Assembly (NCBI RefSeq): GCF_014189855.1 | Contig: NZ_BJFN01000006.1 | Location: forward strand, 186,001 to 250,000 | Direction: 5' to 3' | Length of the DNA stretch: 64,000 nucleotides | From: Buttiauxella sp. A111 | GTDB taxonomy: Bacteria; Pseudomonadota; Gammaproteobacteria; Enterobacterales; Enterobacteriaceae | Shown here: one piece after another, positions 16,869-64,000 of the stretch | How positions within the stretch are numbered: the stretch's first letter is position 1 | How the letters are laid out: each line of letters starts with the position of its first letter | Program-made: the position numbers and the translations under genes | The notes under the pieces: generated by a model | Seen by the model: only the letters and a program-made list of their open reading frames with translations | Databases searched by the model: none | Told to the model about the DNA's origin: nothing

Positions 16869-16993
16869 ATGCCCGTCGTCTTTCAAGCCGCAGGCGTGTT
16901 GGCTACGTTCGCTCGCCCGAATCACTTACTTATGTAAGCTCATCGGGCCTCGTTCTCTTGCCGCCTTCCTGCAACTCAAAATACATTGGGCAT
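16869..16993. repeat. ERIC element 1 (full length)
   Basis: 125 bases with inverted ends ATGCCC/GGGCAT. It contains the ERIC landmarks CTTTCAAGCCGCAGGCGTGTTGGCT, a central ACTTACTTATGTAAGCT and CCTGCAACTC near the right end (shown here in part). These match the enterobacterial repetitive intergenic consensus in reverse orientation. It lies directly upstream of psd, so it may be transcribed as a long hairpin in the psd leader. Confidence 0.9.
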
Positions 16994-60457: not shown

Positions 60458-60583
60458 ATACCCGTCATACTTCAAGCCGCAGGTGCGTTGGCTCGCCCTC
60501 TCACTCCAGTCACATAATGGATTATGCTCCTGGAGATTCGTGGACTTCGCCGCCATCCTGCAACTCGAATTATTTAGGGTATT
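60457..60583. repeat. ERIC element 2 (full length)
   Basis: 127 bases with inverted ends AATACCCG/GGGTATT. Landmarks are CCCGTCATACTTCAAGCCGC, GTGCGTTGGCT, a central palindrome around CATAATGGATTATG in place of the usual ACTTACTTATGTAAG core, CTCCTGGAGATTCG and CCTGCAACTCGAATTA. It abuts the ytfK stop and lies between it and the accessory all-like operon. Confidence 0.92.
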
Positions 60584-60598
60584 AAATTGAAGTATAAA

Positions 60599-60632
60599 AA
60601 ACGGCACCCGAGGGTGCCGTTAGTGTTTTTTA
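60599..60632. terminator. Bidirectional terminator between ytfK and the all-like operon
   Basis: AACGGCACC pairs with GGTGCCGTT around CGAG. T-rich stretches flank it on both strands (TGTTTTTTATT on plus, TTTTTTATACTTC on minus). It separates the ytfK transcript from the end of the allS-like gene. Confidence 0.82.
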
Positions 60633-60648
60633 TTCAACGGAGTCTGGC

Positions 60649-61587
60649 CTAAGGAATATAGCCTGCAGGCCGGTCAATATTCTCAAGAAAGCCTCGTATC
60701 GCCTCATCGTGATGCTGAAAACGCGTCACAATTTCCCGTATCGCTTTACCCGAACCGGCAGATTTCCAGGCCAGCGAAAGCTGCGATGGCTGACGTGCGC
60801 GCTCAACCTGCCGGGTGATGAGCTGCCCGCTATCAATCCACGGCTGGCAAATGTTTGCCGGTAAAAAACCAATCCCTAATCCCTTTAGATGACACTCCAG
60901 CTTGGTGCTCACATCGGGCACTTTTATCTCTTTTTGCCCAGGCAGCAACCAGGCGACGCGGCGCGTCAGGGTGCGCGACGTATCGTCGATATTAATAGCG
61001 GGATAGCGACGCAGCCTGTCTTCGCTGATGACCTTCTCTTCATTAAGCGCAAGCGGGTGATTTGGTGCGATGACAAACAACCATGAGATTTCCCCCAGCG
61101 TATGCAAAGAGATATTGTTCGACAGCGATTCAGATCCCGTCACGCCGATGGCAAGGTGGAAATCGTCGTACAGCAGGGCATCCCAGACCCCCATATAAAC
61201 CTGACGGGAGAGCTGAAATTGGGTGAAAGGAAAATGTTGATGCAGCCAGGCCAGGAATGTTGCCGCCACGTGCGGTTGGTAGAGCAGGTTATTGACCACA
61301 ATATTCACCTGCGTCTCGACACCCGCGTTGATCTGCTGCAGTTCGTTTGGCATGGCATCCACCCAGCTTAGCCACTGCCGACAGTGCTCCAGCAAATGCT
61401 TACCCGCAAGTGTCAGGTTAACGGTTCGCGTGGTGCGCATAAACAATTGCGTGCCGACATGCTCTTCGAGCGTTTTAATCCGGTAGCTTATTGCGGCGGG
61501 CGTCTTGTGCAGTACGGCGGCGGCCTGGGAGAAGCTCTCTGTTTCTGCCACCTTAATAAAAGTACGAATCGTTTCATGATCCAGCAT
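60649..61587 (-). CDS. AllS-like LysR-family transcriptional activator
   Basis: 312 residues. The N-terminal LysR helix-turn-helix is at about 17-40 (ESFSQAAAVLHKTPAAISYRIKTLEE), followed by a substrate-binding domain. Segments such as NELQQINAGVETQVNIVVNN, FTQFQLSRQVYMGVWDALLY and RTLTRRVAWLLPGQKEI closely resemble E. coli AllS, the activator of allantoin-catabolism genes. Here the gene is last in the operon it probably controls, four bases after the allH-like stop. E. coli allS is instead divergent from allD. The effector is unknown. Confidence 0.82.
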   Translation of the reverse strand: MLDHETIRTFIKVAETESFSQAAAVLHKTPAAISYRIKTLEEHVGTQLFMRTTRTVNLTLAGKHLLEHCRQWLSWVDAMPNELQQINAGVETQVNIVVNNLLYQPHVAATFLAWLHQHFPFTQFQLSRQVYMGVWDALLYDDFHLAIGVTGSESLSNNISLHTLGEISWLFVIAPNHPLALNEEKVISEDRLRRYPAINIDDTSRTLTRRVAWLLPGQKEIKVPDVSTKLECHLKGLGIGFLPANICQPWIDSGQLITRQVERARQPSQLSLAWKSAGSGKAIREIVTRFQHHDEAIRGFLENIDRPAGYIP

Positions 61588-61591
61588 AGGC

Positions 61592-62410
61592 TTACCCTTT
61601 TTCAGTCTCTTTCATCCAACGCAAAGCGGTCACAAAGCCGATGAGCGTATCTGCGCCTGAGGTATGTCCATGCGCAAGCAAATGTTTTATGGCAGAACGG
61701 CTATCGCGTCCGGTAGCAAGGCTTCGTAGCAGGCGCAGCAAAGGTGTTGAAAATAGCCCTTGTACAGCATTGTCCAGAAAAGTGCAGCTTACGGATGTTG
61801 TCAGCAAAAGAAGCTGATCGAAGGGGGGTAAAAAGCGGGAAAAAGTCGGCAATGAATGTAAATGTCCATGACAGAAAAGGGCGGCCATCGCCCCCGTCAG
61901 CATATCGTCCCCGGAAGGCGTCAGGCCGGGACCCAAGCCAATCAGGTTGCTCCAGTTAGGTTTACCGCCTGCCTGCCAAAGCGCGATTCCTTCACGCAGG
62001 GTGATGAGATGCGGATGGTCCATGCGCTGGTACGCTTCGTTAATCGGGCCGACCAGGCCGGTCTGCACAGTACAAAAACGGAGGTCGGGTAGAGAGAGTT
62101 GTTCGTAACTCGAGGTCGAAAGATCTAACGTTCTTCGGGCGCAGAGGTCCAGGCCACCGCCAACCAGACGTTCTCCTTTCACACACAGCAAACTTGTGGC
62201 ATTGAGCCTTTCGCTCAGCCTTTCAAAATCGTTAGTGCGAAAAACCCATCCGGTGGGACTACAGCCTTTGCCGAAGCGGTGCAACGTCAGCAATTTCTCC
62301 TGTGAATCGGTCAGGTTGATGGCCTGGCTAAAGCGGCTGTGCAGCCGATACTCTGCACCCTGAAGCAGAGGGGAGTTGCTGCGGGCGAGGGCCTGAATGG
62401 ATAAAAGCAT
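61592..62410 (-). CDS. AllH-like DUF2877 protein (YlbF homologue)
   Basis: 272 residues from ATG 62410 (GAGAG upstream; E. coli YlbF is 271). A GTG at 62455, directly after the allG-like stop, would give 287 residues and cannot be excluded. The DUF2877 core GLGPGLTPSGDDMLTGAMAAL and the C-terminal LAHGHTSGADTLIGFVTAL are clear. In E. coli, AllF, AllG and AllH together form oxamate carbamoyltransferase, which phosphorolyses oxalurate to oxamate and carbamoyl phosphate. A subunit role is inferred from context. Confidence 0.8.
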   Translation of the reverse strand: MLLSIQALARSNSPLLQGAEYRLHSRFSQAINLTDSQEKLLTLHRFGKGCSPTGWVFRTNDFERLSERLNATSLLCVKGERLVGGGLDLCARRTLDLSTSSYEQLSLPDLRFCTVQTGLVGPINEAYQRMDHPHLITLREGIALWQAGGKPNWSNLIGLGPGLTPSGDDMLTGAMAALFCHGHLHSLPTFSRFLPPFDQLLLLTTSVSCTFLDNAVQGLFSTPLLRLLRSLATGRDSRSAIKHLLAHGHTSGADTLIGFVTALRWMKETEKG

Positions 62411-62455
62411 AGCCAGTCTCTCAGGGGTGACCATCGTCACCCCAATGGATAACAC

Positions 62456-63718
62456 TTATGCGGTGATATGGTGGGCCTGAGCCAGCGCTTCGAGAGCTTT
62501 TTCGAAGCATGGCAAAGGTGCACGTACGGTCCCTGCGCCAACCTGACCCACTCCTGCTTCGCGGTGAGCAATCCCGGTGTTAATTAGTGGCGTAATGCCT
62601 GTTTCCACCACGCGGCGGATATCGAGGCCCATACACGCGCCCTTGAAGTTCCAGCTTGGGATTTGCAGCAGCGGGTTGTGGTCGAGATAAATTTCCGTCA
62701 TCTCTTCCGAGGTTTCCAGTGCGGCTTCCATTCCACCAGCACCGACAAAACGCGTCACGCCAGGTGCAGCAATCATTGCCGCACCGCCAATGCCCAGCGT
62801 TTCGGTAATTGCACTGTCGCCGATGTCTGGGTTGGCATCATCCTGGCTATAGCCAGTGAAGAACAGACCCTGCGGCGTGTTCACCGGAGCGGTAAACCAG
62901 CGGTCGCCCAGGCCACTGACGCGGATCCCGAAATCACGCCCGTTGCGCGTCATCGCCGTGACAATCGAGCCCGCTTTGATTTGCGCAGCAGCATCCATCA
63001 CCGCCTTGCTGTACGCCATTGCCAGGTTGAGGAAAAACTGGTCGGTGACGCTCAGGAATTGCATCACTTCTGCCAACTGAGCTTTAGGACGATCCAGTTG
63101 TACGATAAACGGTGCCAGAGTACGCATTAACAGCGCGGAAGATGCGATGTTTCGCTGGTGGAACTCGTCCCCCATGGTAATGGCCTGTGCCATTAATGCG
63201 GTCAGATCGATTCCGTTATCAATACTGGAAAGCGCTTCCTGCAACACTGGAGCAAGGGTGTCGCGCATCCAGCGCAGGCGTTTTTGCACGTCTTCACCGT
63301 AGGCACCGAAGCGCATCACTTTGCCAATACCTTCGTTGAGGTTGCAGCAGGCGTGGTTACCGTGAACAGCATTTTTCACTTCCAGCACCGGCATGTGCGC
63401 GGAGGTGATGCCGCCCATCGGGCCGACGGCGCTGACGTGATGGCAAGGGATAAACTCGATTTCGCCGCAAGCGAGCATCGCCTCGGCTTCTTCTTCGCTG
63501 CTCGCCCAACCCTCAAACAGCGTGGCTCCGAGGCAGGCGCCACGCATTGGGCCTGTCATGTCAGCCCAGGCAATAGGTGGGCCAGCGTGAAGCAGTTTTT
63601 TGCCCTGCGCTAGTTCGGGAATGGCATGGTGTGCCAGGCGAACGCCCGTCCAATGTGGGCGAGCCGCTTTAATGCGTTCGATGATTGCCGCGTTGGCTTC
63701 AGAAATAGAAGAATACAT
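62456..63718 (-). CDS. AllG-like DUF1116 protein (YlbE homologue)
   Basis: 420 residues, about the length of E. coli YlbE/AllG. Conserved stretches are GKKLLHAGPPIAWADMTGPM, EFIPCHHVSAVGPMGGITSA, NLNEGIGKVMRFGAYGEDV, GDEFHQRNIASSALLMR and GVGQVGAGTVRAPLPCFE. The ATG at 63718 follows AGAGG and lies 13 bases after the fdrA-like stop. It is most likely a subunit of oxamate carbamoyltransferase or of a related carbamoyl-transferring complex. Confidence 0.85.
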   Translation of the reverse strand: MYSSISEANAAIIERIKAARPHWTGVRLAHHAIPELAQGKKLLHAGPPIAWADMTGPMRGACLGATLFEGWASSEEEAEAMLACGEIEFIPCHHVSAVGPMGGITSAHMPVLEVKNAVHGNHACCNLNEGIGKVMRFGAYGEDVQKRLRWMRDTLAPVLQEALSSIDNGIDLTALMAQAITMGDEFHQRNIASSALLMRTLAPFIVQLDRPKAQLAEVMQFLSVTDQFFLNLAMAYSKAVMDAAAQIKAGSIVTAMTRNGRDFGIRVSGLGDRWFTAPVNTPQGLFFTGYSQDDANPDIGDSAITETLGIGGAAMIAAPGVTRFVGAGGMEAALETSEEMTEIYLDHNPLLQIPSWNFKGACMGLDIRRVVETGITPLINTGIAHREAGVGQVGAGTVRAPLPCFEKALEALAQAHHITA

Positions 63719-63731
63719 AACCGAACCTCTT

Positions 63732-64000
63732 TTAATTTAATTGTTTTAACAGACTGGCAAGATGCGCGTTGCCACCGGCAACAGGTGCCCATTGATACTG
63801 AACAACCGGAACGCCAGTGCTTTGCAAATCCAAAGCAAAGCTGCGTAAACCGATGTTGATAACTTTTGCGCCATCCAAAAGCGCAGGGCGCGGCAGGACC
63901 GACGAGGCTGGTTTGCGCGTAATGAGATGGCACGCCAGCAGCAACGCTTCCTCCAGTGTATTCATCACTACAATGTCTGCATTAAGCAGCGCATCGGCCT
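63732..64000 (-). CDS. FdrA/AllF-like protein, C-terminal part (cut by window edge)
   Basis: An open frame enters from the right edge with no stop and ends at 63732. About 89 residues are visible: the stretch ADALLNADIVVMNTLEEALL, then the C-terminal domain VINIGLRSFALDLQSTGVPVVQYQWAPVAGGNAHL. The latter resembles the terminal domain of FdrA-family (CoA-ligase-like) proteins. Its position directly before DUF1116 and DUF2877 genes supports an AllF subunit. The catalytic N-terminal domains are outside the window, so the identification is provisional. Confidence 0.65.
   Translation of the reverse strand, partial: ADALLNADIVVMNTLEEALLLACHLITRKPASSVLPRPALLDGAKVINIGLRSFALDLQSTGVPVVQYQWAPVAGGNAHLASLLKQLN

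Follow-up and report, generated by a model that had tools for sequence, protein, structure and literature searches.

A six-gene island with oxamate carbamoyltransferase genes between ytfK and ytfL of Buttiauxella sp. A111, a putative portable module for oxalurate use

Near the right end of a 64,000-nucleotide stretch of the Buttiauxella sp. A111 genome (contig NZ_BJFN01000006.1; hereafter the window), genes for an oxamate carbamoyltransferase lie beyond ytfK and are followed, four bases after allH, by a gene for an AllS-type LysR regulator. What can such an enzyme serve at a locus without allantoin genes? Our analysis, based on sequence comparison, indicates that the locus is probably a portable, self-sufficient module for proton-driven oxalurate uptake and phosphorolysis, yielding ATP and ammonia. 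A carrier of the major facilitator superfamily (MFS) would import oxalurate, or a ureido acid much like it, together with protons. By analogy with the E. coli enzyme, AllF, AllG and AllH would phosphorolyse oxalurate to oxamate and carbamoyl phosphate, and the divergently encoded carbamate kinase would convert carbamoyl phosphate and ADP to ATP, ammonia and CO2. The AllS-type activator probably controls the operon in which its own gene is the last, and the module would therefore need neither AllR nor the allantoin locus.

The island and its distribution

The contig was read on rightward past the window end (this extension is designated L004), and its coordinates were converted to continued window numbering. 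The following genes were found.

60649 to 61587, minus strand: AllS-type LysR regulator gene, 312 amino acids, last gene of the operon (NCBIfam AllS equivalog, 508 bits, cut-off 372)
61592 to 62455, minus strand: allH, third subunit of oxamate carbamoyltransferase, 287 amino acids (Pfam AllH, 96.7 bits, cut-off 25)
62456 to 63718, minus strand: allG, subunit of oxamate carbamoyltransferase, 420 amino acids (Pfam AllG, 334 bits, cut-off 27)
63732 to 64000, minus strand: allF (fdrA), 3' part in the window; the full gene runs to 65399 (L004:1733-3400; NCBIfam FdrA, 858.8 bits, cut-off 433)
65415 to 66638, minus strand: MFS carrier gene, first of the operon (open reading frame list of L004)
66950 to 67870, plus strand: carbamate kinase gene (NF006926, 475 bits, cut-off 416)
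from 67905, minus strand: ytfL (open reading frame list of L004)

All three subunits are encoded side by side, each above the cut-off of its family model; AllG and AllH gave no match to NCBIfam models at E 0.001. AllG has a relative of solved structure (3CLQ), and a search for such a relative of AllH gave none. The LysR protein shares 61% identity with the AllS protein of an E. coli strain that has a K-12-type locus, and the kinase scored slightly under the cut-off of TIGR00746 arcC (353.5 versus 358.25 bits). The carrier gene ends 15 bases ahead of allF, and the kinase gene is divergent after 311 bases. The order fdrA-allG-allH-LysR given in a preliminary description of the window was confirmed on the minus strand, and the rightward extension proposed there for a carbamate kinase or a transporter revealed both, the carrier at the head of the operon and the kinase divergent from it, ahead of ytfL. 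The lack of allantoin genes, noted there for the visible part, holds for the whole interval from ytfK to ytfL. A complete allantoin operon hidden to the right was looked for and is ruled out, since the extended sequence reaches ytfL without an allantoin gene.

ytfK and ytfL are direct neighbours in three other genomes of the genus (G019, G165, and G250). The left flank in the window aligns to this empty site up to 60628, and the alignment picks up again at 67901 (G019 and G250, with 10 bases between) or at 67918 (G165, with 27 bases between). Because the site is empty in these genomes, the six-gene unit is an island of about 7.3 kb between ytfK and ytfL.

The carrier was found at an identity of at least 84% in 25 of 295 sampled genomes of the family, including that of A111, and the six genes stood in the same order in A111 and in all 24 carrier genomes that were fetched. 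Among 80 named loci, which were the 80 top-ranking of 302 relatives retrieved with six peptide patterns from the AllG of A111 and lean towards close relatives, the full block occurred in 16 and a cut block in L047. Flanks were surveyed in 32 of 33 oriented loci (two genomes in twice; the A111 locus left out, as L004 lacks the AllS end) and indicated six or more insertion sites. The AllS end faced mscS in 23 loci, E. coli GF4 among them; the others were at ytfK/ytfL (3), at argI with a YhcH-family gene (2), at hpt/can (1), at a Limnobaculum-type site (2), and at a further site (1). The ytfK-ytfL site was also occupied in the Cedecea loci L015 and L016 and in L107 and L108. Three of 5426 E. coli genomes had the block, at an identity of at least 99.9%, and in GF4 it adjoins insertion sequences and a frameshifted mscS. 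No match to the carrier was found at E 1e-100 among 72,556 plasmid records. With its fixed order, the six-gene block looks like a portable module found in many enterobacterial genera.

Allantoinase (AllB), AllC, and AllD were searched for in whole genomes. In A111, none was above its cut-off (281.8 versus 357.85, 258.2 versus 597.75, and 144.1 versus 496.2 bits, respectively), and the same applied to all 25 island genomes. AllD was above its cut-off in 25 of the 295 family genomes, none of them with the island, and AllB and AllC were above theirs in two of the three island-free genomes of the same genus.

The island could also be a relocated piece of a former allantoin locus of A111 itself, left over without stand-alone function. 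Its enzymes have homologues in the E. coli operon, and similar elements occur in both divergent promoter regions, as would be expected of such a leftover. However, a tree of AllF and AllG from 71 chosen loci placed allFG of three Buttiauxella all loci in the K-12-type clade, whereas the window genes joined Cedecea and other islands. The islands formed one group (support 0.99 without G032 and 0.59 with it) among AllD-linked clusters and apart from the paralogues of A111. The same gene order, with a divergent kinase and an additional carrier, recurs in all 25 genomes; no gene of the island is broken, and the empty site is clean. We rejected a relocated all locus on the tree placement and the empty site, and regard this explanation as very improbable. 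For the same reason, the window genes are not simple orthologues in a relocated locus, an outcome that the preliminary description had considered.

Substrate of the enzyme

AllF, AllG, AllH, and the kinase of the island were 62, 75, 37, and 61% identical to AllFGHK of an E. coli laboratory strain (L105, a K-12-type locus). Two further AllFGH-like sets of A111, designated C10 and C3, were more distant, at 42, 50, 28, and 37% and at 36, 46, 32, and 39%, respectively. AllH is changing much faster than AllF and AllG in this group; the window gene product (61592-62455) shows 51% identity to that of Cedecea L015, versus 81 and 92% for AllF and AllG.

The columns invariant among AllD-linked proteins were then compared, using 28 to 29 references (from 28 of the 38 AllD-bearing named loci and L105) and 30 to 31 islands. 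The islands kept 97.8% of these columns in AllG, 99.4% in AllF, 98.0% in AllH, and 98.8% in the kinase, and the paralogues of A111 kept 59-81%. The single substitution common to the islands was I to V in AllG. Because nearly all of these residues are kept in the islands and not in the paralogues, the substrate of the island enzyme is most likely still oxalurate. E. coli AllFGH is a proven oxamic transcarbamylase, assigned in 2024 (PMC11326118).

Alternatively, the module may use another carbamoyl compound, with an AllFGH enzyme shifted in specificity. Such a shift would fit the lack of AllD above the cut-off, which leaves no demonstrated internal source of oxalurate, as well as the poor conservation of AllH (37% to E. 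coli); the two other sets of A111 adjoin an amidohydrolase and a BiuH-like hydrolase, suggesting that the family can change its substrate. Against this stand the near absence of consistent substitutions at the AllD-linked invariant columns, a regulator above the AllS equivalog cut-off, and a tree that sets the islands among AllD-linked clusters and not with the paralogues. We give this alternative little credence. The preliminary description had offered stand-alone oxalurate use and a different carbamoyl donor side by side; the former gains from the lack of an allantoin operon to the right, of AllB, AllC, and AllD above the cut-offs, and of kinship with the Buttiauxella all loci, and the latter loses from the kept residues.

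Carrier and regulation

The best-scoring solved relative of the island carrier is DgoT, the proton/galactonate symporter (PDB 6E9N and 6E9O). With 190.8 bits against the D-galactonate transporter model TIGR00893 (cut-off 395), the carrier is a relative and not a member of that family. R126 of DgoT has a role in proton-coupled transport. In DgoT, net proton-coupled flux depends on Asp46 and Glu133, and Arg47 is in contact with the carboxyl group of the substrate (PMC6532931, PMC10149257). The positions D46, R47, R126, and E133 read DRRE in 41 of 41 matches of at least 85% identity to the island carrier (some genomes counted twice). DRRE was also present in L130, L049, and L087. The clusters L088, L089, and L090 each have two carriers, of which one reads DRRE and the other DRRQ; perhaps a symporter stands there beside an exchanger. 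Other carriers linked to AllFGH, of at least 42% identity, read [GAST]RWQ or DRRQ.

These classes were compared with the presence of AllD in the named loci, which span at most about 21 kb, so that AllD may lie elsewhere in the same genomes. Of the 80 loci, 21 had a DRRE carrier, and none of these had AllD; 27 had only carriers with Q, and 10 of these had AllD; the remaining 32 had neither class, and 28 of these had AllD. Fisher's test of carrier versus AllD over 82 loci gave 3e-8, a descriptive value, as the loci are related.

Precursor-product antiport is known from arginine fermentation, and the enzymes might act on oxalurate while the MFS protein mainly exports oxamate or swaps external oxalurate for internal oxamate. 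Related carriers adjoin AllFGH in 10 of 38 AllD-bearing loci, where oxalurate can form inside and uptake would be less needed, and oxamate has been termed a dead-end product (PMC11326118). However, the carriers of the AllD loci have lost the protonatable residues ([GAST]-R-W-Q), whereas the island carrier keeps DRRE, and DgoT with the E133Q change still exchanges substrate but shows no net flux (PMC10149257). Export or antiport by the island carrier is thus possible but unlikely. A wider reading, which we put forward tentatively, is that the island may be a mobile carbamoyl-phosphate module that lacks a deiminase and has an oxalurate/H+ symporter of its own, and that AllFGH clusters may use two carrier classes distinguishable by sequence: DRRE carriers for proton-coupled uptake where no oxalurate can be made nearby, and [GAST]-R-W-Q or D-R-R-Q carriers for exchange of oxalurate and oxamate without proton coupling. 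If so, a hidden trade in oxalurate would exist between microbes. DRRE versus RWQ is a testable rule for symport versus exchange in this transporter family.

The AllS-type regulator was the last gene of the operon in A111 and in 24 of 24 fetched genomes. The place at the 3' end, which the preliminary description had linked with autoregulation, is accordingly a fixed feature, and it fits autoregulation. In the carrier-kinase intergenic region, TGTGA-N6-TCA was kept in 30 of 31 distinct sequences (shuffles, 0.24 of 33); the sequences are related, and the conserved motif is therefore a footprint and not independent evidence. It lies 29 bases ahead of a -10-like hexamer in 24 sequences and 27 bases ahead in 3. 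The 29-base spacing would centre this CRP-like site near -41.5, as in class II CRP promoters. The ATTATTAGA...TTTTTTAATAAT element resembles part of an E. coli stretch that bound ArcA, and the divergent promoter regions of the island and the E. coli operon have similar elements. CRP-like and ArcA-like sites may take part in regulation besides AllS. The intergenic alignment yielded no assignable AllS binding site. A CRP-like TGTGATATTCATCACC was also observed in the allD-allF intergenic region of E. coli (L105:18917-19232), inside the ArcA-bound stretch; CRP is not discussed for this stretch in the available portions of PMC12535856.

Several observations weigh against oxalurate uptake and use by a stand-alone module. 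Overall, the carrier has low similarity to DgoT (60 bits). DRRE may have come down from the ancestor of the carrier family; for this reason it supports proton coupling of the island carrier and does not name the substrate. Part of the residue conservation reflects the fact that the islands are more closely related to AllD-linked proteins than to the paralogues. The whole-genome searches covered AllB, AllC, and AllD, and not AllE, AllA, AllR, or oxamate amidohydrolase, and a weaker AllC-like match was present in 10 of 25 island genomes, that of A111 included (236-302 bits, cut-off 597.75). The non-overlap of island and AllD in the 295 genomes was not significant (P = 0.10; 0.03-0.05 with smaller assumed totals of 200-240 genomes). 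The island does not stand out as foreign by its GC content (0.535, with 0.507 and 0.54 in the surrounding sequence). Finally, binding by K-12 AllS showed no response to oxalurate (PMC12535856).

Related systems and border elements

The enzyme itself is known from E. coli (AllFGHK); the portable six-gene arrangement, which brings its own carrier and regulator, is a variation on it that was not found in the literature searched. No oxalurate transporter was found in the available portions of that literature. The island shares with E. coli allFGHK the homologous, residue-conserved AllF, AllG, AllH, and kinase, an AllS-type regulator, and similar divergent-promoter elements. Unlike the E. coli operon, it opens with a carrier gene, has a divergent kinase gene, includes AllS as an operon member, and has no AllD, AllC, AllE, or AllB nearby; in E. 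coli, allK is placed after allH, and allDCE adjoins the operon. DgoT and the island carrier have D46, R47, R126, and E133 in common and presumably differ in substrate. Arginine and agmatine fermentation modules combine a carrier, a catabolic transcarbamylase, and a carbamate kinase to gain one ATP; the island has the same plan but no deiminase. Its three-subunit transcarbamylase is unrelated to theirs (PMC11326118). In nitrifiers, allFGHK near biuH likewise lacks upstream purine genes and was proposed to serve oxalurate use by cross-feeding (PMC12625717). That set belongs to other organisms and has biuret-type genes and a cytosine permease, resembling C10 of A111 rather than the island. If the favoured reading of oxalurate uptake and phosphorolysis is true, oxalurate would be an external nutrient and not merely an intermediate, and the six-gene block of many enterobacterial genera would be a compact test system.

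Three related clusters were observed. C10 (L005:5521-13797) combines a second AllFGH-like set with a carbamate kinase, a cytosine-permease-type carrier, a LysR gene, and a BiuH-like hydrolase (275.6 bits, cut-off 370); as a speculation, it might phosphorolyse allophanate. C3 (L006:5604-15429) has a third AllFGH-like set with an amidohydrolase, a carbamate kinase, a permease, and a LysR gene, and we take it to be like the yah cluster of E. coli. L079 (Leminorella grimontii) is an intermediate form, in which AllS, AllH, an RWQ-type carrier, and AllD adjoin allF, allG, and the kinase; no AllB, AllC, or AllE was seen in the fetched locus, and this cluster may start from ureidoglycolate.

Three elements lie at the ytfK side of the island.

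60458 to 60600: ERIC-like repeat adjoining ytfK; G165 and G250 have it at the empty site, G019 does not
60594 to 60632, no strand assigned: terminator-like hairpin by ytfK, flanked by an A-run on one side and a T-run on the other
60629 to 60648, no strand assigned: left border of the island, where alignment to the empty site has stopped (at 60628)

The hairpin (-16.8 kcal/mol, z -2.8) was equalled by 2 of 200 shuffles. Apart from its last bases, the hairpin also occurs at the empty site; it therefore belongs to the host and serves ytfK, and perhaps the island too. The repeat, which we assume to be ERIC, was ruled out as an island border, as G165 and G250 align across it at the empty site; since two of the three island-free genomes have it, it is host sequence of the ytfK side. 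Diverged copies of this stretch occur at 16869-16983 of the window (72%) and in L080, L059, and L038 (76-81%).

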